Of a stretch of 64,000 bases of DNA, positions 1,903 through 47,916 are shown piece by piece. The notes under the pieces were generated by a model, which made no database searches, had not been told where the DNA came from, and saw only the letters and a program-made list of their open reading frames with translations. The DNA is from Schizochytrium sp. TIO01. Taxonomy: Eukaryota > Sar > Bigyra > Thraustochytrida > Thraustochytriidae. The stretch is from NCBI GenBank assembly GCA_004764695.1, contig SMSO01000025.1, positions 5,386,362 to 5,450,361 on the forward strand, written 5' to 3'. Each line of letters begins with the position of its first letter. The first letter of the stretch is position 1. A program made the translations under genes and the position numbers.

Positions 1903-3057
1903 ATGATTATGTCGATGCGAACTCTCGTTTTTTGCTTTGCTTTGGCGCTATCCAGCATGGTTGCCAAGGCAGACTATATTACCATGGAGGTTGTCACCAA
2001 CGAGTATGACAACATCACCAGTATTATGGACACACTCATCACCAAGGCAACGTCCGGCTGGAATAGCCTTATCAAGGAGACCCAGGAGTCTATTACTTTC
2101 ACTCAGGCTACCAGCCTCAAAAAGTACTGCGACATCGACTACACGATCTCTGCAGGCACCGAAATTGAAGGCTTGCTTGTCCTTCTTCAAATTGTTGAGA
2201 CCGAGAGCACCTCAATTGTGACCTCTGAGATCTGCACCTTTGCCCTGGAAGACAGCACTTACTTCCCCCGCATTGGCCTCATCACCATGGATCTGAGCAA
2301 GGCAAAGGAGTGGAACAAGCAGGTCCTTGATAACATTTGGGAGCACGAAATCGGCCACCTCCTCGGTCTCGGTATGCTTTGGGAGCGCTACGGACTTGTC
2401 TCAAACGGCGCTTACACCGGCGAGAACGGTATTTACGGCTACGAGCGTGTCGGTGCCTCTGAAGGTGTAGAGAGTGTCCCTGTACAGCGTAGTTTGTCTT
2501 CGAGCATTTACCATTGGGATGACTTTGTTCTCGGTGCCGAGCTTATGACTGGCCGCATGAACGGACACTTCCACCCTCTTTCCTACGTGACCGCTCACTC
2601 TTTGGTCGACCTTGGCTATCAGATCAACTCCAACAAGGCGGATTCTCTTGACCTCGTTGAGGATGATTATGATAATGATACCACTGGTGTATGGATTGAT
2701 CTTTTTCACGACTTTTCTCCTATCACCTCTGACCAAAAGGTGCCCGTCTTCAGTGATGGAACCATTTCCTACAAGACTGTACAATTTAGCGACTCTGACA
2801 ACTCCTCTTCTAGCAGTAGCACCAGCAACTACTACTACTATGATGATGATCACCCCCACCCTAGCACTTGGGAGGTTGCTATTACTGTTCTCTTTGCCGT
2901 CGTTGTGGTTGCGCTCATTGGTACCTGCTGCGTATGCTTTTACCGTCGTCGTATGATGAAGCGCGCTGATGCTCCGACTGAGCCTAGCAAATTCGAAGAT
3001 TGCGAGCTTCCGCCTATTCAACGTCAGCAGAACTCGCACTCTATGAATGCTGTCTAA
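1903..3057 (+). CDS. Leishmanolysin-like (M8) surface metalloprotease, one module
   Basis: This is a 384-residue type I membrane protein. A signal peptide (about 1-23) ends in AKA and is followed by one metzincin module. The zinc site is HEIGH at 148-152, followed by LLGLGMLW, with a third His candidate at H204 in YHWDD. The Met-turn candidate is M215 in ELMTG. This order (HExxHxxG, then HW, then ELMTG, then a DLGYQ stretch) matches short M8/leishmanolysin-like peptidases. A Ser/Tyr/Asp-rich stalk (298-320) leads to one transmembrane helix (about 323-346), a YRRR stop-transfer and a tail ending MNAV. It is the first of five same-strand paralogues, so it probably acts outside the cell while anchored in the plasma membrane or a secretory compartment. 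The substrate is unknown. ATG 1903 starts directly before the signal peptide. Confidence 0.88.
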   Translation: MIMSMRTLVFCFALALSSMVAKADYITMEVVTNEYDNITSIMDTLITKATSGWNSLIKETQESITFTQATSLKKYCDIDYTISAGTEIEGLLVLLQIVETESTSIVTSEICTFALEDSTYFPRIGLITMDLSKAKEWNKQVLDNIWEHEIGHLLGLGMLWERYGLVSNGAYTGENGIYGYERVGASEGVESVPVQRSLSSSIYHWDDFVLGAELMTGRMNGHFHPLSYVTAHSLVDLGYQINSNKADSLDLVEDDYDNDTTGVWIDLFHDFSPITSDQKVPVFSDGTISYKTVQFSDSDNSSSSSSTSNYYYYDDDHPHPSTWEVAITVLFAVVVVALIGTCCVCFYRRRMMKRADAPTEPSKFEDCELPPIQRQQNSHSMNAV

Positions 3058-20870: not shown

Positions 20871-23800
20871 ATGATTAAAGCTATGAAGCTGTTGGCTCTG
20901 ACCTCCGCGGTCTTGTCAGCGGCTCTTGTAGAGGCCTCTTATATTTCATTTGAAGTTGTCACCAATGATCTTGATAGTGATTATGACAGTACTATCAATG
21001 AGTTCTTTACCAACGCTACAGCTAAATGGAACGATGTGATCTATTCATCTCTCGACGATCTTGAGTTCACATCGAAAACAAATGTTTCAAGCTACTGTGA
21101 TATTGACAAGGCTTATAGCTCGGGCGATACTATCTCAAACTTGACGATTCTTGTTTCAATTACCTCGGACGCAGCAGAGAACATTACTGCTAAGCCATGT
21201 GTTTTTGCAGAGTCTGATGGCACCTATCTTCCCCGTATTGGTGCAATCATTCTCAATGCTAATTACTTTGAAACTTATGTCGTAGACAGCACCTTCTTCA
21301 CCATCCGCCTTCTGGCTCACGAGATTGGCCACGTTCTTGGTCTTGGTACTCTCTGGAACGCCTACAATTATGTTGAATCTACTACTAAGTACAACGGCAA
21401 GCGTGGTGTTTGGGGCTATGTGCAGGTCTCCGGTGACGAAGACGTGACAACAGTGCCTATCACCTCCGATAACATATCCTCCTCCACTCCCGCCGAGCAC
21501 TGGTCGGAGACCGTTTTCACTGGTGAACTCATGACTGGCGTGCTCAACGGCAAGAAGAGTCCGCTTTCGATCCTCTCTGTTGATGCTCTTCGCGATATTG
21601 GATACCAGGTTATTGCTGAGAACTCTGAAGACTACGAGTTCAGTTATGTGGCTGACCACGAAGCTGCTGATGGAGATGCTCGCCGTCAGCTCGGAAACGG
21701 CCCCAGCGTCTACGGCGACTTCACTCCCATTGTTCTTAGTGATGGAATTGCTGTATTCTCCGATGGAACCATTGCAACGAAGACCGTTTCTGCTCTTGGA
21801 AACTCTTCGTACGCTTCCACCGACACTGATGATGATGACACTTCAACGGACTATGTTAACATTGAGATTGTCTCTAATGAGCTCTCTCAGTACACGTACA
21901 TCATTAAGGAGTACTTTGCCAACGCATCTGCTAAGTGGAACGACGTGATCTACACTTCGCTTGATGACCTAGAGTTTACCGAGGACGTTGACGTAACAGA
22001 CTATTGTGGTGTTCCTAAGACCTACTCTTCTGGTGACACCGTCTCCAACTTGACGATTCTTGTTGAGATCTCTTCATCTGCGGAGGAGAACATTACTGCT
22101 AAGCCATGCGTGTTTGCAGAGTCTGATGGCACCTATCTTCCCCGTATTGGTGTGATTATTCTGAACACTGATTTCTTTAGATATTACGTCGAAGACAGCA
22201 CCTTCTTCACCATCCGCCTTCTGGCTCACGAGATTGGCCACGTTCTTGGTCTTGGTACTCTCTGGAACGCCTACAATTATCTTGAATCTGACACCACGTA
22301 CGACGGCAAGCGTGGTGTTTGGGGCTATGTGCAAGTCTCCGGTGACGAAGACGTGACAACAGTGCCTATCACCTCCGAGCACTGGTCTGAGACTGTCTTC
22401 ACTGGTGAACTCATGACTGGCGTGCTCAACGGCAAGAAGAGTCCGCTTTCGATCCTCTCTGTTGATGCTCTTCGCGATATTGGATACCAGGTTATTGCTG
22501 AGAACTCTGAAGACTACGAGTTCAGTTACGTGGCTGACCACGAAGCTGCTGATGGAGATGCTCGCCGTCAGCTCGGAAACGGCCCCAGCGTCTACGGCGA
22601 CTTCACTGCCATTGACCTTGATGACGGAATTGCTGTATTCTCCGATGGAACCATTGCAACGAAGACCGTTTCTGCTCTTGGAAACTCTTCGTACGCTTCC
22701 ACCGACACTGATGATGATGATGACACTTCAACGGACTATGTTAACATCGAGATTGTCTCTAATGAGCTCTCTCAGTACACGTACATCATTAAGGAGTACT
22801 TTGCCAACGCATCTGCTAAGTGGAACGACGTGATCTACACTTCGCTTGATGACCTAGAGTTTACCGAGGACGTTGACGTAACAGACTATTGTGGTGTTCC
22901 TAAGACCTACTCTTCTGGTGACACCGTCTCCAACTTGACGATTCTTGTTGAGATCTCTTCATCTGCGGAGGAGAACATTACTGCTAAGCCATGCGTGTTT
23001 GCAGAGTCTGATGGCACCTATCTTCCCCGTATTGGTGTGATTATTCTGAACACTGATTTCTTTAGATATTACGTCGAAGACAGCACCTTCTTCACCATCC
23101 GCCTTCTGGCTCACGAGATTGGCCACGTTCTTGGTCTTGGTACTCTCTGGAACGCCTACAATTATCTTGAATCTGACACCACGTACGACGGCAAGCGTGG
23201 TGTTTGGGGCTATGTGCAAGTCTCCGGTGACGAAGACGTGACAACAGTACCTATCACCTCCGAGCACTGGTCTGAGACTGTTTTCACTGGTGAACTCATG
23301 ACTGGCGTGCTCAACGGCAAGAAGAGTCCGCTTTCGATCCTCTCTGTTGATGCTCTTCGCGATATTGGATACCAGGTTATTGCTGAGAACTCTGAAGACT
23401 ACGAGTTCAGTTATGTGGCCGACCACGAAGCTGCTGATGGAGATGCTCGCCGTCAGCTCGGAAACGGCCCCAGCGTCTACGGCGACTTCACTGCCATTGA
23501 CCTTGATGACGGAATTGCTGTATTCTCCGATGGAACCATTGCAACGAAGACCGTTTCTGCTCTTGGAAACTCTTCGTACGCTTCCACCGACACTGATGAT
23601 GATGATGACACTTCAACGGACTATGTTAACATCGAGATTGTCTCTAATGAGCTCTCTCAGTACACGTACATCATTAAGGAGTACTTTGCCAACGCATCTG
23701 CTAAGTGGAACAACGTGATCTACACTTCGCTTGATGACCTAGAGTTTACCGAGGACGTTGATATTTCGGACTCCTGTGGTATTCCCAAGACCTACTCTTC

Positions 23801-26549
23801 TGGTGACACCGTCTCCAACTTGACGATTCTTGTTGAGATCTCTTCATCTGCGGAGGAGAACATTACTGCTAAGCCATGCGTGTTTGCTGAATCTGACGAC
23901 ACCTATCTTCCCCGTATTGGTGTGATTATTCTTAACACTGATTTCTTTAGGTACTATGTAGAAGATGACGACTTTCTCACTGTCCGCCTTCTGGCTCACG
24001 AGATTGGCCACGTTCTTGGTCTCGGTACTCTCTGGAACGCCTACGACTATATTAAATCCTCTACAAAGTACAACGGCAAGCGTGGTGTTTGGGGTTATGA
24101 GCAGGCTGCGAATGTATCGGATGTCACTTATGTTCCCATTCAGGTCGATAACACGACAAATGAAGGGGAACATTGGTCTGAGACTGTCTTCACTGGTGAG
24201 CTCATGACTGGCGTACTTAGTGGAAAGAAAAGTCCTCTTTCGGTACTTTCTGTTGATGCTCTTCGCGATATTGGTTACCAGGTTATTGCTGATAACTCTG
24301 AGGACTACGATTTCACCTACATTAAGGATAATGAGGAAGCTGATGGAGATGCTCGCCGCCAGCTTGGTCACGGCGTTAGCTTGTACGGTGATTTCGCTCC
24401 TATCAGCCTTAGTGACAAGCTTCTTGTGTTCGCCGATGGTACAATTACTTCTAAGACTGTGTCTAGTCTTGGAACGTCTCAATATGCCGATGATGATGAC
24501 AGCTATTCAAGCTCCTATTCTGACAGCAGTCCTGGGGATTACATCACATACGAAATTGTTACCAATGATCTAACGGACGACGCCAGCATCATCAAGACTT
24601 ACTTGAAAAATGCAACAGCTAAGTGGAACAAGGTTATTCACAGCTCTCTCACGGACCTTGAGTTCACAACATCAACGAGCATGTCTGACTTCTGTGGTGT
24701 TGACAAAACTTACTCGTCTGGAGACACTGTCTCAAACTTGACAATTTTGGTTTCGATTACCTCAGACGCAACAGAAAACATTACTGCAAAGCCTTGCGTG
24801 TTTTCTCTGGAAGACAGTACCTACATGCCTCGTATTGGTGTTCTTCAATTCAAGACTTCTTACATTCAAGAGTATCTTGAGGATAGCACTTACTTCACGC
24901 TTCGACTCTTTGCGCACGAGATTGGTCATATCCTTGGCCTTGGTACTCTCTGGAATGCCTATGACTATGTTGAATCTACCACCAAGTACGACGGCAAGCG
25001 TGGTGTTTGGGGCTATGTGCAAGTCTCTGGTGACGAAGATGTGACGTACGTGCCTATTACTTCAGACAACACGTCCGGTGCCGGCGAGCACTGGTCGGAG
25101 ACTGTTTTCACTGGTGAGCTCATGACTGGTGTGCTTAATGGTAAGAAGAGCCCTCTTTCAGTTCTCTCTGTTGATGCGCTTCGTGATATTGGATACACAG
25201 TTTACGCTTCGAATGCAGAGGACTATGAGTACAGCTATGTATCTGATCATGAAGCTGCAGACGGCGATGCCCGCAGGCAGCTTGGAAACGGTCCTAGTTT
25301 GTACGGCGACTTCACTCCCATTGACCTTGATGATGGAATTGCTGTGTTTTCAGATGGTACTGTTTCCACAGAGACTGTATCAAGTCTTGGTACTGCTTCG
25401 TATGCTGATGATGACGATGATGATGACGATGACTCCAGTACTGGTGACTACGTGAGCATTGATATTGTCTCAAATGAACTATCCGAGTATGCATACATTA
25501 TCAACGAGTACTTTGTGAATGCTTCCGCAAAGTGGAACAGTGTTTTGTCAACGTCTCTTGACACCCTTGAGTTTACTGAATCCGTGGATATTTCTGACTC
25601 GTGTGGTGTACCAAAGTCTTACGCATCTGGTGACACCGTGACCAATTTAACTATTCTGGTTGAGATTTCCTCTTCTGCAACCGAAAACATTACTGCGAAG
25701 CAGTGCATTTTCGCTGAATCCGATGGTACTTACTTCCCGCGTGTTGGAGCTATTATTCTCAACACTGACTTTTTCAGGTACTATGTAGAGGATGATGACT
25801 TCTTGACTGTGCGTCTTTTGGCTCACGAGATTGGCCACGTTCTTGGTCTTGGCACGCTTTGGGATGCCTATGGTTACGTTGAGACTGCGACGGAGTACGA
25901 CGGCAAGCGCGGAGTTTGGGGTTACAGATCAGTTTCCAGTGACAACGATGTGACTACTGTACCTATTCAAGTTGACAACACAACTAATGAAGGCGAGCAC
26001 TGGTCTGAGTCTGTCTTCACTGGCGAACTCATGACTGGTGTACTCAGCGGTAAGAAGAGCCCACTCTCGGTGCTCTCTGTTGATGCTCTTCGCGACCTTG
26101 GATACGAAGTTGTTGATGATAACGCTGAGGACTATGACTTCACCTACATCAAGGACAACGAAGAAGCTGATGGAGATGCTCGCCGTCAGCTTGGTCACGG
26201 CGTTAGCTTGTACGGGGACTTTGCCCCCGTCAGCCTCAGTGACAAGCTTCTTGTGTTTGCTAACGGTGCCGTTAAATCGAAGAAGCTCTCCAGTCTCGGT
26301 TCTTCAACTTACTCTGACAAAACCTCAGCCCCTGCCTCCAGCAGCAGCAAGGCATCTGCCTGGGAAATTGCCACTACCGTTCTCGCATGTGTGTTTTTCG
26401 TTGGCTTTGCTGTTCTTGCTGGCTTCCTCATCTACCGCAACCGCAACCGCCCCACTGACGCCGCAAGCACCCGCTCTGGCATTTCAATGTCATCTCTTGC
26501 GAAGACCCCGCAGCACCAACCGGACGACCGTGCTGTCCAAATGGTTTAA
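20871..26549 (+). CDS. Six-module leishmanolysin-like (M8) surface metalloprotease
   Basis: This is a 1892-residue protein from ATG 20871, the first ATG and directly before a signal peptide (about 1-21). Six tandem metzincin modules start near residues 23, 328, 623, 918, 1224 and 1527. Their HEIGH motifs start at about 150, 453, 748, 1043, 1349 and 1652, all followed by (V/I)LGLGTLW. Every module keeps an EHWSE third-ligand motif and ELMTGVL, so all six look catalytically competent. Each module ends with DARRQLG and then a YGDF stretch; poly-Asp/Ser linkers join the modules. A transmembrane helix (about 1831-1854), basic YRNRNR and a tail ending VQMV close the protein. Modules 2 and 3 are almost identical in DNA. 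The many NxT/S sites suggest heavy glycosylation. Single-module family members are normally about 300-600 residues, so this length is exceptional. Confidence 0.9.
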   Translation: MIKAMKLLALTSAVLSAALVEASYISFEVVTNDLDSDYDSTINEFFTNATAKWNDVIYSSLDDLEFTSKTNVSSYCDIDKAYSSGDTISNLTILVSITSDAAENITAKPCVFAESDGTYLPRIGAIILNANYFETYVVDSTFFTIRLLAHEIGHVLGLGTLWNAYNYVESTTKYNGKRGVWGYVQVSGDEDVTTVPITSDNISSSTPAEHWSETVFTGELMTGVLNGKKSPLSILSVDALRDIGYQVIAENSEDYEFSYVADHEAADGDARRQLGNGPSVYGDFTPIVLSDGIAVFSDGTIATKTVSALGNSSYASTDTDDDDTSTDYVNIEIVSNELSQYTYIIKEYFANASAKWNDVIYTSLDDLEFTEDVDVTDYCGVPKTYSSGDTVSNLTILVEISSSAEENITAKPCVFAESDGTYLPRIGVIILNTDFFRYYVEDSTFFTIRLLAHEIGHVLGLGTLWNAYNYLESDTTYDGKRGVWGYVQVSGDEDVTTVPITSEHWSETVFTGELMTGVLNGKKSPLSILSVDALRDIGYQVIAENSEDYEFSYVADHEAADGDARRQLGNGPSVYGDFTAIDLDDGIAVFSDGTIATKTVSALGNSSYASTDTDDDDDTSTDYVNIEIVSNELSQYTYIIKEYFANASAKWNDVIYTSLDDLEFTEDVDVTDYCGVPKTYSSGDTVSNLTILVEISSSAEENITAKPCVFAESDGTYLPRIGVIILNTDFFRYYVEDSTFFTIRLLAHEIGHVLGLGTLWNAYNYLESDTTYDGKRGVWGYVQVSGDEDVTTVPITSEHWSETVFTGELMTGVLNGKKSPLSILSVDALRDIGYQVIAENSEDYEFSYVADHEAADGDARRQLGNGPSVYGDFTAIDLDDGIAVFSDGTIATKTVSALGNSSYASTDTDDDDDTSTDYVNIEIVSNELSQYTYIIKEYFANASAKWNNVIYTSLDDLEFTEDVDISDSCGIPKTYSSGDTVSNLTILVEISSSAEENITAKPCVFAESDDTYLPRIGVIILNTDFFRYYVEDDDFLTVRLLAHEIGHVLGLGTLWNAYDYIKSSTKYNGKRGVWGYEQAANVSDVTYVPIQVDNTTNEGEHWSETVFTGELMTGVLSGKKSPLSVLSVDALRDIGYQVIADNSEDYDFTYIKDNEEADGDARRQLGHGVSLYGDFAPISLSDKLLVFADGTITSKTVSSLGTSQYADDDDSYSSSYSDSSPGDYITYEIVTNDLTDDASIIKTYLKNATAKWNKVIHSSLTDLEFTTSTSMSDFCGVDKTYSSGDTVSNLTILVSITSDATENITAKPCVFSLEDSTYMPRIGVLQFKTSYIQEYLEDSTYFTLRLFAHEIGHILGLGTLWNAYDYVESTTKYDGKRGVWGYVQVSGDEDVTYVPITSDNTSGAGEHWSETVFTGELMTGVLNGKKSPLSVLSVDALRDIGYTVYASNAEDYEYSYVSDHEAADGDARRQLGNGPSLYGDFTPIDLDDGIAVFSDGTVSTETVSSLGTASYADDDDDDDDDSSTGDYVSIDIVSNELSEYAYIINEYFVNASAKWNSVLSTSLDTLEFTESVDISDSCGVPKSYASGDTVTNLTILVEISSSATENITAKQCIFAESDGTYFPRVGAIILNTDFFRYYVEDDDFLTVRLLAHEIGHVLGLGTLWDAYGYVETATEYDGKRGVWGYRSVSSDNDVTTVPIQVDNTTNEGEHWSESVFTGELMTGVLSGKKSPLSVLSVDALRDLGYEVVDDNAEDYDFTYIKDNEEADGDARRQLGHGVSLYGDFAPVSLSDKLLVFANGAVKSKKLSSLGSSTYSDKTSAPASSSSKASAWEIATTVLACVFFVGFAVLAGFLIYRNRNRPTDAASTRSGISMSSLAKTPQHQPDDRAVQMV
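21840..23609 (+). repeat. Two 885-bp near-identical protease-module repeats
   Basis: The boundary word ACTTCAACGGACTATG recurs at 21840, 22725 and 23610, exactly 885 bases apart. Units 21840-22724 and 22725-23609 differ at only a handful of bases that I can find, for example ATTGAG/ATCGAG after the boundary and CCTATC preceded by G or A. The start of module 4 and the C-terminal half of module 1 also share long near-identical blocks. This indicates recent unequal exchange or conversion. Confidence 0.92.
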
Positions 26550-39946: not shown

Positions 39947-41803
39947 ATGCTGTACCTGAAGACGAGGAGCTCCTGGTTAGCTGTGCTGACAGCGTGCTTC
40001 GCAGCGAACCAGGTCGCGCATGTGAAGGGATTTGTATGTGCAGGAGATGGAATGCAATGTCAGAAACCCGAGGGCCTAGAGCTTTGCGAGGATGTGACCT
40101 ATGAAGCTTGCCGAACCGAAGATACTTGGGCTGCTCAAGAAGCGCTGGCTCAAACTCGCCTCGATCGAATCATGTCATTGTATGGGCCAATTGTGAACCG
40201 AAGCGAGGAGTGCTTTGATGTTGTTCGGAAATTCCAATGTGCAGCAGTGTTCTCAGCATGCGAAGGATTTGAAGACAAAGCAGACCTTGTGTGTAGCTCT
40301 CAGTGTGATGTGGTTAAGCAGGTTTGCAGCACTGATGGCACCCAGGATTCCTCTGATGATAGCGAACTTCCCGACATTATTCAGCTAGATAGTCGTGCAT
40401 ACGGACTCATCTGTGACACTGGGACAAGGTCTGAAGAAGAAACTTGTTTTGAGCTCGATTACACGGGACCGTCCTACTATCTGTGGGCGATTGGTTTAGG
40501 CATGGCAGTTCTCTTTTCATTCCTCAACGCTGTAGCTCTGAATCTACAAAAATTGAGTCTTAACCGCCACGGCCAGGATGTACCTGTGATTCGACAGCCG
40601 CTTTGGATTTCAGGATTCTTCATTCTACTCTTGGGATCAGTCATGGACTTTGTTGCCTTTGGTCTCGCACCCGCCAGTCTTCTAGCTCCTCTTGCTGCCT
40701 TGTCCCTCGTCTGGAACATGGTTTCTACACCTTTGATCCTCCGCGAGGAGAAACCTGCGCGTAACCAGATCATCGCAACGATGATTATTTTCTGCGGCTG
40801 CATTCTTGCGGTCATCTTTAGCAACCACTCTTCACCAACCTACACCTTGCAGGATCTCAAAGATCTTTATAGACGCCAAGCCATGATAATATACACCTGC
40901 GTTGTACCCGTCTTGGTAATGCTTCATATGGCCTCAATTGAGATTGTTGAGGCCTTGCCTGCACACTGGCGAGACCGCGGTTTCTTCAAGCGTATCCATC
41001 TCATTGGCTACGCCGGATCCGCAGGTATCGTAGGAGGACAGTCCATTATTTTTGCGAAATCCACTGTGGAAATCTTCAAATCTGCTTTTAGTGGAGCCAA
41101 GGGTATTGGGGCCAACGCGGAGACTTACTTCATCATTTCCGGCATGATCTTTTGTATGCTGGTGCAAATCACCTACTTAAACGGTGGTCTATTGCACCAC
41201 GACTCGTTGTCAATTGTGCCCGTATATCAGGCGTACTGGATTCTTTCTGGTGTCATCGGTGGCTTGGTGTACTTTGATGAAATTTCTGGTTTTACTGCTC
41301 TCCAGTTGGGGCTATTCTCCTTTGGTCTGCTGATGACCTTTGGTGGTGTTTCTTTTCTTGCTCATCTTGCTGGTAAGGAGCGCCGGATGCCTGTAAGTCC
41401 TGGCATTGTGGAAATCAACGAGGACGCCGAGCTCGAAGATGACCCTACTCATCTTGGTGATCGTCATGTAATGAATGATTATCTGATGGCGAACCCGCGT
41501 ACTGCTGCCGTAGAGGTGCTCTTAGACATGGGTATTAACCCGGACAAGGTTGGCCGCATCCTTGGTGAGTCTTCAGTGCGTCTGCGCGTGCAGCGTCATA
41601 AACAATTCGTCTTGACTGAAATGGGCGTAAACCCTGATATCGCCATGAAGATGCTTCGCGGTACTTCATCACGTCGTAATCTCCAATATCATCGTAGTGA
41701 TAACAGTAATGTAGAGGGCATTGAAATGCAGAATGCCTCTCATAATACCTCTCGTGGGGGTGAACAGCAGCATCGCATGGATGGGTCTATGCGTAACATC
41801 TGA
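39947..41803 (+). CDS. NIPA-like Mg2+ transporter with extracellular Frizzled-type Cys-rich domain
   Basis: This 618-residue membrane protein starts with a signal peptide (about 1-28). An extracellular Cys-rich domain (about 31-160) follows, with Cys at 38, 47, 55, 89, 98, 105, 116, 120, 127 and 156. The Frizzled-like pattern includes CEDVTYEAC, EECFDVVRKFQCAAVFSAC and CSSQC. Nine predicted helices (about 179-473) carry NIPA/DUF803 signatures: ALNLQKLSL near 197-205, the APASLLAPLAALSLVWN stretch (241-257) and LREEKP (265-270). NIPA proteins move Mg2+ across plasma or endosomal membranes. The cytoplasmic tail (about 475-618) holds two similar segments, LLDMGINPDKV and LTEMGVNPDIA, that resemble short UBA helices. 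Ordinary NIPA proteins are about 330-400 residues without a Cys-rich ectodomain, so the fusion is notable. The ligand is unknown. Confidence 0.85.
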   Translation: MLYLKTRSSWLAVLTACFAANQVAHVKGFVCAGDGMQCQKPEGLELCEDVTYEACRTEDTWAAQEALAQTRLDRIMSLYGPIVNRSEECFDVVRKFQCAAVFSACEGFEDKADLVCSSQCDVVKQVCSTDGTQDSSDDSELPDIIQLDSRAYGLICDTGTRSEEETCFELDYTGPSYYLWAIGLGMAVLFSFLNAVALNLQKLSLNRHGQDVPVIRQPLWISGFFILLLGSVMDFVAFGLAPASLLAPLAALSLVWNMVSTPLILREEKPARNQIIATMIIFCGCILAVIFSNHSSPTYTLQDLKDLYRRQAMIIYTCVVPVLVMLHMASIEIVEALPAHWRDRGFFKRIHLIGYAGSAGIVGGQSIIFAKSTVEIFKSAFSGAKGIGANAETYFIISGMIFCMLVQITYLNGGLLHHDSLSIVPVYQAYWILSGVIGGLVYFDEISGFTALQLGLFSFGLLMTFGGVSFLAHLAGKERRMPVSPGIVEINEDAELEDDPTHLGDRHVMNDYLMANPRTAAVEVLLDMGINPDKVGRILGESSVRLRVQRHKQFVLTEMGVNPDIAMKMLRGTSSRRNLQYHRSDNSNVEGIEMQNASHNTSRGGEQQHRMDGSMRNI

Positions 41804-42306: not shown

Positions 42307-42319
42307 TTAACCCTGGCTA
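42307..42319 (+). repeat. Left TTAA target site and 9-bp terminal inverted repeat
   Basis: TTAA (42307-42310) followed by CCCTGGCTA. Pairs exactly with the inverse sequence at the other end. Confidence 0.9.
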
Positions 42320-42551
42320 AATTCAAAATGTCCCGAATTATGTCCGCAAAATATTTTTGACTAAAATCGCCAGAAAACCCTGTAAAGATCTAAAATCGTA
42401 AATTTGATTGTATGATCATGTTGAAACAACTGTTTCCCTAAACTGAGCACGATTTCTTTGCAGAAGCAAGCGTATTGAGCTCACGCTACTCGTCCAAAAA
42501 TTGGCTCACAACCTCGATAAAACGGCCTAATAGGGCAAATAGGCCTTTAGA

Positions 42552-42578
42552 TTTTCAGGACGTAATACGTCCTGAAAA
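42552..42578. repeat. Left subterminal palindrome of the transposon
   Basis: Thirteen-base arms (TTTTCAGGACGTA and its inverse) around one central base. Lies about 240 bases inside the left end. Confidence 0.85.
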
Positions 42579-42771
42579 ACTGAACTTTGCATTAGCGAAA
42601 ACGTATAAGAGTTTGGGTATTTTGGTTAGTTTAATAGTTTAGTTAATATAAACAATAGTAGTTTATTTTTGCGTTGCTCAAGTCGGAGAAACATCTAAAG
42701 ATGAAGATTTCGCGATAAATGAAGATTTTATATAAGCTAAATGTAATATTAATTTTTTGTGTGGATAATTT

Positions 42772-45700
42772 TTATGTATGGAAATGAGGAATCGTAATTT
42801 GCTCCTCGCTATGAAATTTGATATTGCAATGCTTACAAATGTAAGCATTGCAAGTTTGGCACCATCGAGTGGTCTTCCGTGGATTACGATATGGATGGTC
42901 TGGCGCCGATCCCCGTTCGCAATCAACACAACACATAATGCAGGCTCCCCTCTTCTTGAACTTGCCCACGCATTCATGCTGTCCAACTAAACGAGTTTGT
43001 AGAAGTTCTGGGAGTCGTGACTTACTGTATTGATACTGTTGCGGCGATTCTAGCGAGGCTGTAGAAGTAGGCGAAATGGTGTTATCAGTTGCTCTCCAGC
43101 AGAATTCTATGTCAGACATGGAACAAGTATTGTCAAATGGGTAAAGGGATTCCATTGAGACAACCCTAATTTCTTCTGCGAGACTACTTAGATAGCCTCT
43201 ATAGCAGCACAGATTTTTGCGTAGCATTGACCATTCCGTAATTGTTTTACACTTCGATGTGAGGTTCCGATGCTCCATTGAGAGGAGCTGATACGCTCGA
43301 AACGAGTTGTATAAAATATAGTCAATGAATGTTAAACAAACCAAAGCATTAGGAGTCAGCTTTGAAGTACGAATGCTCGCTCCATTGATAGTTTTTCTAG
43401 TGATATCAACTCCGCCCATCATCTTATTCCAGACACTAACAGTCAAAGGCAGTAGGCGTTTGCAAGGCGGTGGGGTTCCGTTGACCAGCACGTCGTCACT
43501 ATGCCTCCGCCAAAGCTGCAAAGCGAGTTCGGCACTGTGTAAATCCACAGCATAACCCCAGTCTGGTGATTGGTCTGGTGCAAAACGAGGAAACCTACCA
43601 AGTTGATTGCCATAAGCAAAGCCCATGTATTCATCACTCAACGCTTTGAAATACTCACGCCATGACTGGCGCTGGGCACATGAGACTTTGATTAGCACTC
43701 CTTGCATGATTTCCTCAGTTGTGGCATATATAAGGAGGGTGTAAGGGACATCTAAAGTAGCTGCATGATGGATACACTGAGTTCGAAACGACGGATTTGG
43801 GACTAACGACTCGAACTCACTTGTTCCACATTTGCATTCGTGCCACGCACTCTGACCAGCAACTCGAGACTTTAACTCATCTATAGTTTTGGCATTTGTA
43901 CTTGTTTTGATTTCTAAGGCAAATACATCATCTATAACAAAATTGTTTCCTTCTAGCTCTGTATTCCTCAAAAGAACAGCTGCACCGTCGGGTGAGTCTG
44001 CTACAAATTGGACTTCCCGATTAATAATCAGACCATATTTGCGTAGCTGGAGAATACAGAATTTATTGGAACTTGCTTTCTTAACCCATCTGGAAAGATC
44101 TTTCGCCACGTCTGCCTCATTTTCAATCCCCAAAGCCAGTGGGTTTTTATGATTCGAAAACCCATTTTGAATAGGCTTCATAAACCAACTTGGTGTGATT
44201 GTTCTAAGAAATGATTTCTGGCGTTCCTCGAAAGTGCATGTATGGTTATCATCAATCGTTTCAGAATTGTGCAAGGGAAAGCTGTCCCCAATGTCACTAC
44301 TGTCACTCATTTCCAGCAGGTCTTGAGTAGTGGACTCCTGAGATGCATGCTGAGGGTGTATGTCTTCCTGTAAGGAAGATAGTTCTCCGTTTGAGACCGT
44401 TTCATGATCTATAGTTCTTGATAGGATGTCTACGATCCGCTTGGCTAGTTCGATCTTTTTGCCATCAGTCTTTGCACCTACATCCAAAGAAAGTAACTTT
44501 TGGATAAGCTCATTTTTGTTCATACGTTGCATCCAGTATGTATATTCAAGAATAAGACCCTCCCCTTGACGCTTCCTTTTATATTGCTTCTGAGCTCCTT
44601 CAGATGAATAAGAAGAACGCTTATTAGGACGGGGGAATAATGAGATAATTCGTTGCGGGTCAAGACAAGCGAACGATTTCACATCGTGGTGTAAGGCCAT
44701 AAGCTCATCCGAATGAACGAATGGAGCATTTTTAAAGTTGATACAGGTAAAAGCACCGGTGCTTGTAATTCTAAATTGCCGAGCCATAAACCAGTCAGGT
44801 GTTCTTTGGGAAATTGTCATTGAGAAGATATTGGCGTTCACAAGGTTAATTTTATGATTAGCTTGTGCCTTCATCTTATATGTACTCATGTCACACGGCT
44901 CTATCTCAATCTCAGCATGTGGAACGCGCTTTACACCACCTGGTGAGTTCCAATCTACTCCAGCAGGAAGTACTTCGTAACTCCAAACTTGGTCAGCCAA
45001 ACAACGGTCGTTCGTGATGAGTTGTGCAACTCTATGCTTTCCCGCACCGTGACGCATCATCATCGCAGCAACAAAATCGCCATTCTGGTATCTTTGAGCG
45101 GTGTAGGTGCTTCGACGGCCATTCCTGTTAATGATAGTTTGACTTCCCCTCACAGGCGTAGCAGGAACTGGTCCTTCAACATCTATAAACGGGAATGACG
45201 AGGTCTTGCGACAAGTTCCAAGAAATTTGACTCCCTTTGACTGAAGAATTTGAGTTATGTTTGTTGCACGATCCATATCCTGAGGTTTCGATAATGCCAG
45301 ATAACCACGATCAATGAATACACGAAGCTCTGAAGACACAGACGCATCAGGGCTTTCTCCTGACTCCCCCTCATTCAGAAAATCTATTGCCTTGCTTACA
45401 ATTTTATGAACAGGTGAGTGGGAAGTCTCTAACCGTGGTACTAGGAGCAGACCTGTACCCACAGAGCACACAAGATGTATCACGGGTTTCTGTTTTTTTG
45501 TTTTCGTTGGAATGGTACGAATTCCAAAATTCTCCCACTGAGGAGAACCATAGGGAAGCTTGTCGTCATCAAGATCGATCCAAGTGGTTTTAGGGACAAA
45601 GAACATCTTCACCCAATGGCGCTGAGCAGCACCTCCCATTTCATGGATGATCGGACTTGAGGAGCATACTCTAGCCTCGCGTGACCCTTTTGTTGCCCGA

Positions 45701-46287
45701 TTGGACTTGTCCAGGCTCATTGCCTTTCGAACTTTTGAATAGGATACCGTATGGGCTAGATTCCAATGACCTGGTGGGTCCTCAAGACACTCCGAGAACG
45801 ACTTTCCTGCAACTCGCAGAGAAATTTCAACGAGAAGGTAGGCACGGAAATCTTGATCCGTGATAGAAAATGGCGGAGATGCGTTTGAGCTAAGACTATT
45901 CAACCATTCCTTAACTGCAATCACCCAGCCTGGCGGCAAACAAATCTTGAAACTATCAAGCCTGGTAAATTTGTAGTTATTGTCAACACGAAGAACCTTT
46001 CGAATCCTTTTAGTAATCTCCGAACTTTCTTGTTGAACCTTGGGGAGCATTAATTCGCTTGAGCAATTGTACTTGAGTTGGACTGCGTTCATGCCAAGTT
46101 GAGACCCAGATAGGTTGCTGTGGTACTTTGCGCCTTCAGTGGAGTAAGATTGAAAGGTCCAGTTTTCATGGCCAGGAGTACTTGCCGATGAACACTCATA
46201 GAGATCGTTCTCGTCTTCATCAGAAGAAGACTCATCAGAGGAAATGTAGATTGAGTCCTTGTCATTCTCGACGTCATCTAGAGACAT
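42772..46287 (-). CDS. piggyBac-like transposase with inserted SAP and YqaJ-like nuclease domains
   Basis: This 1171-residue protein begins with an acidic Ser-rich N-terminus (1-40), as in many piggyBac transposases. The DDE-type core follows: a first Asp candidate within IDLDDDKLPYGS (237-248), KKQKPVIHLVCSVGTGLLL (264-282), a second Asp at D326 (VFIDRGYL) followed by FLGTCRK, and a third at D961 in WNKMMGGVDIT. Between D326 and D961 lies a YqaJ-type exonuclease. It shows WFMARQFRITS (499-509), GIENEAD (720-726), SPDG with D767, and LEIK with E792 and K794, giving a PD-(D/E)XK active site. A SAP-like motif (589-622) containing KNELIQKLLSLDVGAKTDGK lies inside that region. The C-terminus has a Cys/His zinc module (1106-1159) typical of piggyBac. 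No stop or frameshift was seen, so cut-and-paste activity is plausible. The role of the nuclease is unknown. Confidence 0.9.
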   Translation of the reverse strand: MSLDDVENDKDSIYISSDESSSDEDENDLYECSSASTPGHENWTFQSYSTEGAKYHSNLSGSQLGMNAVQLKYNCSSELMLPKVQQESSEITKRIRKVLRVDNNYKFTRLDSFKICLPPGWVIAVKEWLNSLSSNASPPFSITDQDFRAYLLVEISLRVAGKSFSECLEDPPGHWNLAHTVSYSKVRKAMSLDKSNRATKGSREARVCSSSPIIHEMGGAAQRHWVKMFFVPKTTWIDLDDDKLPYGSPQWENFGIRTIPTKTKKQKPVIHLVCSVGTGLLLVPRLETSHSPVHKIVSKAIDFLNEGESGESPDASVSSELRVFIDRGYLALSKPQDMDRATNITQILQSKGVKFLGTCRKTSSFPFIDVEGPVPATPVRGSQTIINRNGRRSTYTAQRYQNGDFVAAMMMRHGAGKHRVAQLITNDRCLADQVWSYEVLPAGVDWNSPGGVKRVPHAEIEIEPCDMSTYKMKAQANHKINLVNANIFSMTISQRTPDWFMARQFRITSTGAFTCINFKNAPFVHSDELMALHHDVKSFACLDPQRIISLFPRPNKRSSYSSEGAQKQYKRKRQGEGLILEYTYWMQRMNKNELIQKLLSLDVGAKTDGKKIELAKRIVDILSRTIDHETVSNGELSSLQEDIHPQHASQESTTQDLLEMSDSSDIGDSFPLHNSETIDDNHTCTFEERQKSFLRTITPSWFMKPIQNGFSNHKNPLALGIENEADVAKDLSRWVKKASSNKFCILQLRKYGLIINREVQFVADSPDGAAVLLRNTELEGNNFVIDDVFALEIKTSTNAKTIDELKSRVAGQSAWHECKCGTSEFESLVPNPSFRTQCIHHAATLDVPYTLLIYATTEEIMQGVLIKVSCAQRQSWREYFKALSDEYMGFAYGNQLGRFPRFAPDQSPDWGYAVDLHSAELALQLWRRHSDDVLVNGTPPPCKRLLPLTVSVWNKMMGGVDITRKTINGASIRTSKLTPNALVCLTFIDYILYNSFRAYQLLSMEHRNLTSKCKTITEWSMLRKNLCCYRGYLSSLAEEIRVVSMESLYPFDNTCSMSDIEFCWRATDNTISPTSTASLESPQQYQYSKSRLPELLQTRLVGQHECVGKFKKRGACIMCCVDCERGSAPDHPYRNPRKTTRWCQTCNAYICKHCNIKFHSEEQITIPHFHT
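42824..42853. repeat. Perfect hairpin inside the transposase zinc-finger codons
   Basis: Arms TTGCAATGCTTAC and GTAAGCATTGCAA with an AAAT loop. On the minus strand it encodes the CNAYICKHCN part of the zinc module. Confidence 0.85.
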
Positions 46288-46702
46288 GACACACAGCTGA
46301 CGTTAAACTCAAGCGCCAATGGACCTCTTCGCTGAGGGAAGTGCTGATAGATCCCAAGTAGACTAGCAAGTGGACGATGAAGTAAGGTATGATGTACTTT
46401 TGTTGGTACTGCTGGCACTACATGCTGGCGCAAGATATTATTGATGTTTATCAGTATTAATTGTCTGGTAGAACAGGTACCGTGGGAGAACCTAACGACC
46501 ATGTGTCAAATACCTGTTAACCTAACCACCACCTAACCGCCACTGAGAATGTCATTGTTTGGTCCTAAACTCAACTATCAATCGGAGAATCATGAGAACA
46601 TGATAACATATGGACAGGTGAGGTCGGGGAGGGTAAACTAAACGAGTTTCATCCCGAACAGAGCTAGACTGTTGAATTGATCAATGACTCAAGTAGGTAC
46701 AT

Positions 46703-46730
46703 ATTTTTCGGGACGTAATAAGTCCTTAAA
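46703..46730. repeat. Degenerate subterminal palindrome, right side
   Basis: Copy of the right-end palindrome with mismatches in one arm (TTTTTCGGGACGTA against AGTCCTTAAA). Lies about 70 bases inside the right end. Confidence 0.75.
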
Positions 46731-46761
46731 TACTCTACCGGGAAAATTAAAGTTTATCCGA

Positions 46762-46790
46762 TTTTTCGGGACGTAATACGTCCCGAAAAA
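46762..46790. repeat. Right terminal palindrome of the transposon
   Basis: Fourteen-base arms (TTTTTCGGGACGTA and inverse) around one central base, abutting the terminal TAGCCAGGG. Confidence 0.88.
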
Positions 46791-46803
46791 TAGCCAGGGT
46801 TAA
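46791..46803 (-). repeat. Right 9-bp terminal inverted repeat and TTAA target site
   Basis: TAGCCAGGG followed by TTAA (46800-46803), the exact inverse complement of the left boundary. Confidence 0.9.
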
Positions 46804-47112: not shown

Positions 47113-47449
47113 CATCGACCTAAACATAGAGAGCTTTCAGCATCGTGTGCCATGAATTCTGCGTTCTGAATTCTGCAGCTTCTTAACTCCACCTCTCAGT
47201 ATTCATTCAACGCATCGCGATCGCCATGGCTATGGCTGCCTGGCTGGCCAATCTCGCGCACCTGCGCCTGTCATCACTCACGAACAAATAACTGATCAAA
47301 GTCCCACGGCAACCTCCTCGAGCCAGAGTTTGTGGCTGACGCTGCGTTGTCGTTGTCGTCGAACCTCCAGAGGTTCTGTCAGCCGGGTCAGTCCCGGTAC
47401 CCCATCATTCCGCAGCCTGTGGCCAACGGGGTGGCACGGTCCTCGCCAA

Positions 47450-47550
47450 CTTGAACTTGAACTTGACCTTGACCTTGAACTTGAACTTGAACTTGAACTT
47501 GAACTTGAACTTGAACTTGGACTTGAACTTGGACTTGGACTTGGACTTGC
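47450..47550. repeat. (CTTGAA)n hexanucleotide repeat
   Basis: About sixteen units with occasional CTTGAC or CTTGGA variants. Confidence 0.92.

Positions 47551-47832: not shown

Positions 47833-47916
<84 letters not shown>
47833..47916. repeat. (TTTC)n microsatellite
   Basis: About twenty near-perfect tetramers, purine-only on the minus strand. Confidence 0.95.

Follow-up and report, generated by a model that had tools for sequence, protein, structure and literature searches.

The element and the gene within it

Analysis of a 64,000-nucleotide stretch of the Schizochytrium sp. TIO01 genome (contig SMSO01000025.1; this whole stretch is the window, and positions are counted from its first base) revealed a 4489-bp piggyBac-type transposon at 42311-46799, with TTAA at either side. 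The element is recognized by the TTAA, by its CCCTGGCTA/TAGCCAGGG ends and by its subterminal palindromes, and very probably encodes a transposase in which a nuclease is nested between the second and third catalytic aspartates. A first-pass annotation had described the gene; the ends of the element and the TTAA duplication were absent from it and were delimited in this analysis, as follows.

42307-42310, no strand: left TTAA target-site duplication, from the TTAACCCTGGCTA word search of the window
42311-42319, plus strand: left terminal inverted repeat CCCTGGCTA, from repeat comparison
42551-42579, no strand: left copy of the subterminal palindrome, starting 240 bp in from the left end, three mismatches to the reference copy at 46762-46790
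46704-46732, no strand: second right-hand copy of the palindrome, 67 bp in from the right end, four mismatches to the same reference copy
46762-46790, no strand: near-perfect subterminal palindrome TTTTTCGGGACGTAATACGTCCCGAAAAA, the reference copy, adjoining the right inverted repeat, 9 bp from the right end
46791-46799, minus strand: right terminal inverted repeat, reading TAGCCAGGG on the plus strand, from repeat comparison
46800-46803, no strand: right TTAA target-site duplication, from the word search

When up to one mismatch was allowed, the 13-base word TTAACCCTGGCTA had two sites in the window, 42307-42319 and an inverse copy at 46791-46803, for a chance expectation of 0.01. The terminal inverted repeats pair at nine of nine bases and are of the CC..GG type, in which piggyBac elements terminate. 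The end sequence printed for piggyBac, CCC/GGG, agrees with these termini (PMC7351741). The three palindromes are unevenly spaced between the two ends of the element; in piggyBac, too, the two transposon ends are non-equivalent, and a palindromic internal repeat is the binding site of the C-terminal domains (PMC7351741). Judged from its sequence, the element is a complete and probably autonomous member of the piggyBac superfamily. Two simple repeats, (AACTTG)17 at 47448-47549 and (TCTT)21 at 47833-47916, lie just beyond it.

The element contains one long open reading frame (ORF), whose product is laid out as listed here with block values of the predicted local distance difference test (pLDDT) where a structure was modeled.

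42772-46287, minus strand: transposase-nuclease ORF of 1171 amino acids, a single uninterrupted frame with an ATG start and no internal stops
45598-46062, minus strand: N-terminal helical region, residues 76-230, predicted helices with block pLDDT 50-89 from residue 81
45202-45579, minus strand: RNase H-like part 1, residues 237-362, with beta-1 carrying D240, beta-4 followed by D326, and beta-5 (block pLDDT 45-84 for 231-360)
44995-45201, minus strand: beta-rich stretch of predicted strands, residues 363-431, the probable canonical piggyBac insertion domain (block pLDDT 36-56)
44632-44820, minus strand: nuclease part 1, residues 490-552, QRTxDWFxAR with W499 and R503, placed by alignment and poorly modeled
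44422-44538, minus strand: SAP-like helical segment nested in the nuclease, residues 584-622, with helices modeled at block pLDDT 76-85 and a Pfam SAP match (E 0.012) that stays below the cut-off
43618-44142, minus strand: nuclease part 2, residues 716-890, with G720xxxE724, SPD767G, E792xK794 and YRxQ837, placed by alignment and predicted fold
43258-43455, minus strand: RNase H-like part 2, residues 945-1010, placed by alignment, with D961 in a helix predicted from 960 (pLDDT about 33-40 around D961)
42793-42954, minus strand: C-terminal Cys/His module, residues 1112-1165, with conserved spacing of cysteines and histidines at 1116-1159

The motifs that define these parts begin at residues 237 (IDLDDDK), 324 (FIDRGYL), 720 (GIENEAD), 765 (SPDG), 791 (LEIK) and 956 (MMGGVDIT), with W499FMAR503 in nuclease part 1, and 635 residues separate the second catalytic Asp from the third. 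As predicted, the protein is built of three nested layers: a transposase, a nuclease within the transposase and a SAP-like segment within the nuclease. By analogy with piggyBac (compare PMC7351741), the N-terminal residues 76-230 may occupy the place of its dimerization and DNA-binding domain. Within the ORF, near its stop, two 14-bp arms form a perfect inverted repeat around a 2-base loop (42824-42853).

Conservation and predicted folds of the fused protein

Six relatives, P0003 to P0008, match the motif order and the fusion as far as each extends, at 28-35% identity to the window protein. P0003 (1192 residues) and P0004 (1226 residues), both complete, were found with the joined catalytic pieces as query, and a profile search yielded P0005 (1284 residues, complete), P0006 (1087 residues, with an unrelated tail that begins before the third Asp), P0007 (725 residues, lacking the N-terminus with the first Asp) and P0008 (a 535-residue fragment that stops after the first nuclease motif). 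P0006, the nearest named relative, is FCC1311_021772 of the labyrinthulid Hondaea fermentalgiana. P0007 represents a cluster of 35 sequences, which may indicate a multicopy family. Because the profile search did not recover P0003 and P0004, although both were in its query, the count is a lower bound of at least six. The initial homolog search returned the window protein itself as the sole match among 5580 candidates, and scans of viral contigs (two used of eight) and of one genome contig found no relative.

Mean pairwise identity in the alignment was 44% for transposase part 1, 40% for the part with the third Asp, 35-36% for the nuclease parts, with part 2 at 35%, and 36% for the Cys/His module, falling to 24% in the N-terminal helical region, 22% in the SAP insert and 19% in the linker (means calculated without P0008 from residue 553, P0006 from residue 930 and pairs sharing less than half a segment). 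The transposase and nuclease parts are more conserved than the linker and the SAP insert, suggesting that both enzymes have been retained while the joints drift.

Comparison with the piggyBac transposase of Trichoplusia ni supported the assignment of the transposase. D240, D326 and D961 align with piggyBac D268, D346 and D447 (PDB 6x67 numbering), the third residue lying in a GGVD/GNVD motif. D240 was present in all six rows with a letter at that position, D326 in seven of seven and D961 in five of six, the exception being the tail of P0006. D238, two residues upstream of D240, is likewise invariant and is a candidate alternative counterpart of the first catalytic Asp. S275 (in LVCSVGTG) had been considered as the site of a lost first Asp and was dropped, the 6x67 numbering placing D268 in the TIDE motif, opposite D240. 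When the transposase core was compared by hhalign with 6x67 and 9c0f, the score was 32.9, above all 200 column shuffles (maximum 27.4), with a probability of 32 in local and 67 in global mode and with all three Asp aligned; four other parts of the protein scored below 16.

Two predicted models were used, a full-length AlphaFold model (mean pLDDT 50.8) and a model of residues 478-900 (mean pLDDT 64.2). Across residues 231-360 the full-length model places strands at 237-243 (containing D240), 266-275 and 281-286, then a helix, and strands at 322-325 (before D326) and 354-359. A Foldseek search with this model placed piggyBac 6x67 first, with an E-value of 1.7e-6, a probability of 1.00 and a TM-score, normalized to target length, of 0.40, followed by five Tn5 transposase chains, with no others below E 0.001; lower down it also matched lambda exonuclease 3slp (probability 0.96, E 0.29). 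The spacing of Cys and His is identical in all four members that reach the C-terminal module, for which the best Pfam zf-Tnp_2 match was E 0.015, in two of seven members, and the zf-B_box match of the window fragment (E 0.00099) lay below the cut-off. The piggyBac landmarks that the first-pass annotation had pointed out were located and joined by the TTAA and CC..GG ends, the conserved Asp triad and the first-ranked match to 6x67.

Analysis of the sequence between the second and third Asp supported a lambda-exonuclease/YqaJ-type PD-(D/E)XK nuclease, the structural part of this assignment being predicted. The reference set consisted of nine phage lambda-exonuclease/YqaJ proteins, lambda's own and eight chosen for diversity from 60 of 316 records. 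With the variable insert removed, the nuclease core aligned end to end with this set by hhalign (probability 90, E 1.5e-6 as a single comparison, score 49.9); a repeat gave 49.5, and none of 200 column shuffles scored above 22.0. Probabilities for four other parts of the protein were at most 0.2. Lambda residues W24, R28, E85, D119, E129, K131 and Q157 correspond to W499, R503, E724, D767, E792, K794 and Q837. W499 and R503, in the first nuclease motif, are present in seven of seven members, and the other five, in the remaining motifs, in all six that extend further and span the region. By alignment W499 and R503 are the counterparts of the 5'-phosphate pocket of lambda exonuclease, their spatial position being modeled at low confidence (mostly pLDDT below 55), and the R503 and E724 motifs stand about 160 residues farther apart than their lambda counterparts, with the SAP-like segment in the stretch between them.

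The catalytic half (718-887) of the 478-900 model had block pLDDT of 59-93, exceeding 80 in 12 of 17 blocks. Foldseek with this model returned lambda exonuclease at ranks 1 to 3 (probability 1.00, best E 1.6e-3), and ranks 1 to 11 were all taken by this enzyme, LHK-Exo, human MGME1 and SSO0001, with no match under E 0.001. A profile of the nuclease core searched against PDB at E up to 10 gave five sequences, among them the lambda-exonuclease relatives LHK-Exo (at 0.44) and R354 (two chains, at 0.57 and 0.58). The first-pass annotation had named the absence of a restriction-endonuclease-like fold from a predicted structure as counter-evidence; such a fold was predicted, and the YqaJ-like nuclease that it had proposed, in one polypeptide with an RNase H-like site, held up in the conserved motifs of the relatives, in the profile comparisons and in Foldseek with the two models. 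The nuclease is likely to be catalytically active.

Two proposals of the first-pass annotation fared less evenly. The SAP motif that it placed at 589-622 coincides with SAP-like helices in the model, but its Pfam SAP match (E 0.012, with 15.7 bits where the cut-off is 23.9) was found in one of six members, and a longer piece gave E 0.05, second to an unrelated family. The nuclease was also proposed to occupy the piggyBac insertion slot. It does lie between the second and third Asp, but it seems not to replace the insertion domain, which in piggyBac comes after beta-5 and contacts DNA (PMC7351741). Strands predicted at 367-371, 383-388, 395-401, 404-412 and 420-425 (block pLDDT 36-56) follow beta-5 (354-359) and resemble the canonical insertion domain, which seems to be kept at 367-425, with the nuclease (about 490-890) added after it and ahead of the D961 helix.

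Several observations count against this anatomy. No curated family model gave a match above its cut-off. The transposase part had no match to a Pfam piggyBac catalytic model, and PDB profile searches did not list 6x67. Keeping the SAP insert in the comparison lowered the hhalign probability of the nuclease to 25. Pfam YqaJ was the sole Pfam match when one version of the window core was searched (E 0.074; 13.8 bits, where the cut-off is 22), and was found in one of six members, and two other cuts had no Pfam YqaJ match. Both models are modest by mean pLDDT, and D961, the W499/R503 motif and the strands assigned to the insertion domain all fall in their low-confidence parts. Other searches were also uninformative: the whole protein scanned with Pfam, PHROGs, NCBIfam and, by phmmer, PDB yielded neither a transposase nor a nuclease domain, the two joined cores gave nothing meaningful by phmmer against PDB, and tblastn of the nuclease core against phages returned eight records, every one at E 6 or worse. 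Weak PDB profile matches to unrelated proteins, such as a viral nucleoprotein at E 0.51, were judged to be chance.

A proposed role in donor-site repair and its alternatives

The best overall explanation of these data, and one that we consider reasonably likely, is a piggyBac transposon whose nested lambda-type nuclease would be tethered and would resect the 5' strands of the donor site. The RNase H-like site (D240, D326 and D961) would excise the element at TTAA, as in piggyBac, while the nuclease (W499/R503 pocket; E724, D767, E792 and K794) would be tethered to the synaptic complex and would resect 5' strands at the broken donor site; the SAP-like segment may assist in holding DNA. After excision of piggyBac, the donor site has complementary TTAA overhangs and closes seamlessly (PMC7351741), and lambda exonuclease resects 5' to 3' from phosphorylated ends, with W24 and R28 holding the 5' phosphate (PMC7496540). 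Resection would strip the overhangs needed for seamless rejoining and expose 3' single strands, and the gap would therefore be repaired from a sister or homologous copy, putting the element back, so that cut-and-paste would increase copy number. Taken alone, the donor-resection role is tentative and less likely than not. The wider possibility of a piggyBac lineage with repair-pathway choice built into its transposase, in which homology-directed repair restores the donor copy and cut-and-paste multiplies like a replicative element, is more doubtful still.

Difficulties with donor resection arise from the known enzymes. Lambda exonuclease favors ends with a short 3' overhang (PMC7496540) and the four-base overhangs of piggyBac can simply rejoin, suggesting that an extra step may be needed. 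There is also a mismatch of symmetry between the trimeric ring of lambda exonuclease (PMC7496540) and the piggyBac dimer (PMC7351741).

An alternative, which we regard as unlikely, is that the excised element or hairpin ends are the substrate of the nuclease, which would trim or open transposon ends or degrade failed or competing excised molecules and so limit transposition. The nuclease directly precedes the D961 helix in sequence, and the corresponding piggyBac helices touch the transposon end (PMC7351741); in addition, the KolobokD nuclease was proposed by its authors to degrade DNA intermediates (PMC9587614). However, a 5' exonuclease acting on the ends of its own element would destroy it, and piggyBac transposase itself opens its hairpins (PMC7351741).

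Retention of the nuclease fold mainly for DNA binding or structure, with little or no catalysis, appears improbable. Other DDE/D transposases bear insertion domains at the same topological place, that of piggyBac contacting DNA (PMC7351741), and D764, beside a core motif, is Ser in two of six members. Nevertheless, the seven matched residues are invariant, against about 20% identity for the linker and SAP insert.

Assignment of the element to Kolobok, which also uses TTAA and whose KolobokE lineage bears a lambda-exonuclease-like domain, was rejected on the evidence of the termini, the best fold match and the identity of the third catalytic residue and is highly improbable. Kolobok termini are 5'-RR..YY-3' and the third catalytic residue is Glu (PMC9587614), whereas the element has CC..GG ends and an Asp in GGVD/GNVD, its first Foldseek match is piggyBac, and its nuclease is nested rather than downstream, Kolobok being set apart here by description and not by sequence. 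Least probable of all is an artefact, whether a chance fusion of two genes, a chimeric assembly or a nuclease gene within an intron. P0006 lacks the third Asp and ends in an unrelated tail, but the window has a single open frame, proteins from lgn, jgi, ena and ncbi share the insertion point, and six relatives from separate sources, Hondaea among them, carry the fusion as far as each extends; it can therefore be neither chimeric nor the product of a faulty gene model, and the intron or two-gene chimera that the first-pass annotation had named as counter-evidence was contradicted.

Neighboring genes, related transposons and implications

Elsewhere in the window, successive genes across 1903-26549 carry the HExxHxxG motif of metalloproteases. 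Among them, the one at 20871-26549 is the largest (1892 residues); it is made up of repeated units and has a leishmanolysin match (Peptidase_M8, E 5.9e-22), and another, at 1903-3057, had no Pfam match at 0.001. The gene at 39947-41803 encodes a NIPA-type magnesium transporter (E 1.1e-26) whose N-terminal part resembles the Frizzled Cys-rich domain (E 1.8e-6, below cut-off). Eukaryotic genes are present in the window, as illustrated by an APC8/Cdc23 match at E 5.9e-56.

Comparison with known systems placed the element nearest to T. ni piggyBac (6x67/6x68; PMC7351741), with which it shares the TTAA duplication, CC..GG ends, uneven subterminal palindromes, the aligned Asp triad and the best Foldseek match, and possibly a Cys-rich C-terminal module. 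In contrast, piggyBac has no nuclease and its second and third Asp are only 101 residues apart, compared with 635 here, and it lies beyond the reach of Pfam and phmmer from the window protein. KolobokE is likewise specific for TTAA and has, in addition to its transposase, a lambda-exonuclease-like nuclease of the PD-(D/E)XK type, but it belongs to another superfamily, with RR..YY termini (PMC9587614). A C/DxxH motif between the second Asp and the final Glu is a mark of Kolobok and KolobokE. KolX-like proteins, a different kind of accessory protein, occur in a few families of piggyBac (PMC9587614). ISL2EU is also a DNA transposon with a YqaJ exonuclease domain, in its case in a separate second ORF and in another superfamily with another target site (PMC4482050, PMC9179366). 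Lambda exonuclease, LHK-Exo and YqaJ (PF09588) share the seven matched key residues and the predicted fold, but the window nuclease has about 160 more residues, with the SAP-like segment, and belongs to a transposase.

Transposons with a captured lambda-type nuclease are therefore known, and we found no report of one in the piggyBac superfamily or in nested form: among the matches listed in the open-licence PMC literature (titles and abstract openings, with Repbase outside this scope), no piggyBac with a YqaJ/lambda-type nuclease was found. To our knowledge, this would be the sole case of such a nuclease nested inside a transposase catalytic domain.

Copy gain by cut-and-paste transposons hinges on repair of the donor gap, which is usually a matter for the host. 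If our explanation is correct, an end-resecting transposase would make the choice of repair part of the element, a proposal testable by point mutants. A nested, doubly catalytic protein would also be difficult to reconcile with transpososome architecture and might serve as a reagent for genome engineering. Beside KolobokE and ISL2EU, the element would represent a third capture of a lambda-exonuclease-type nuclease by DNA transposons, assuming separate origins, and such repeated capture by different DNA transposons would hint at a shared need.

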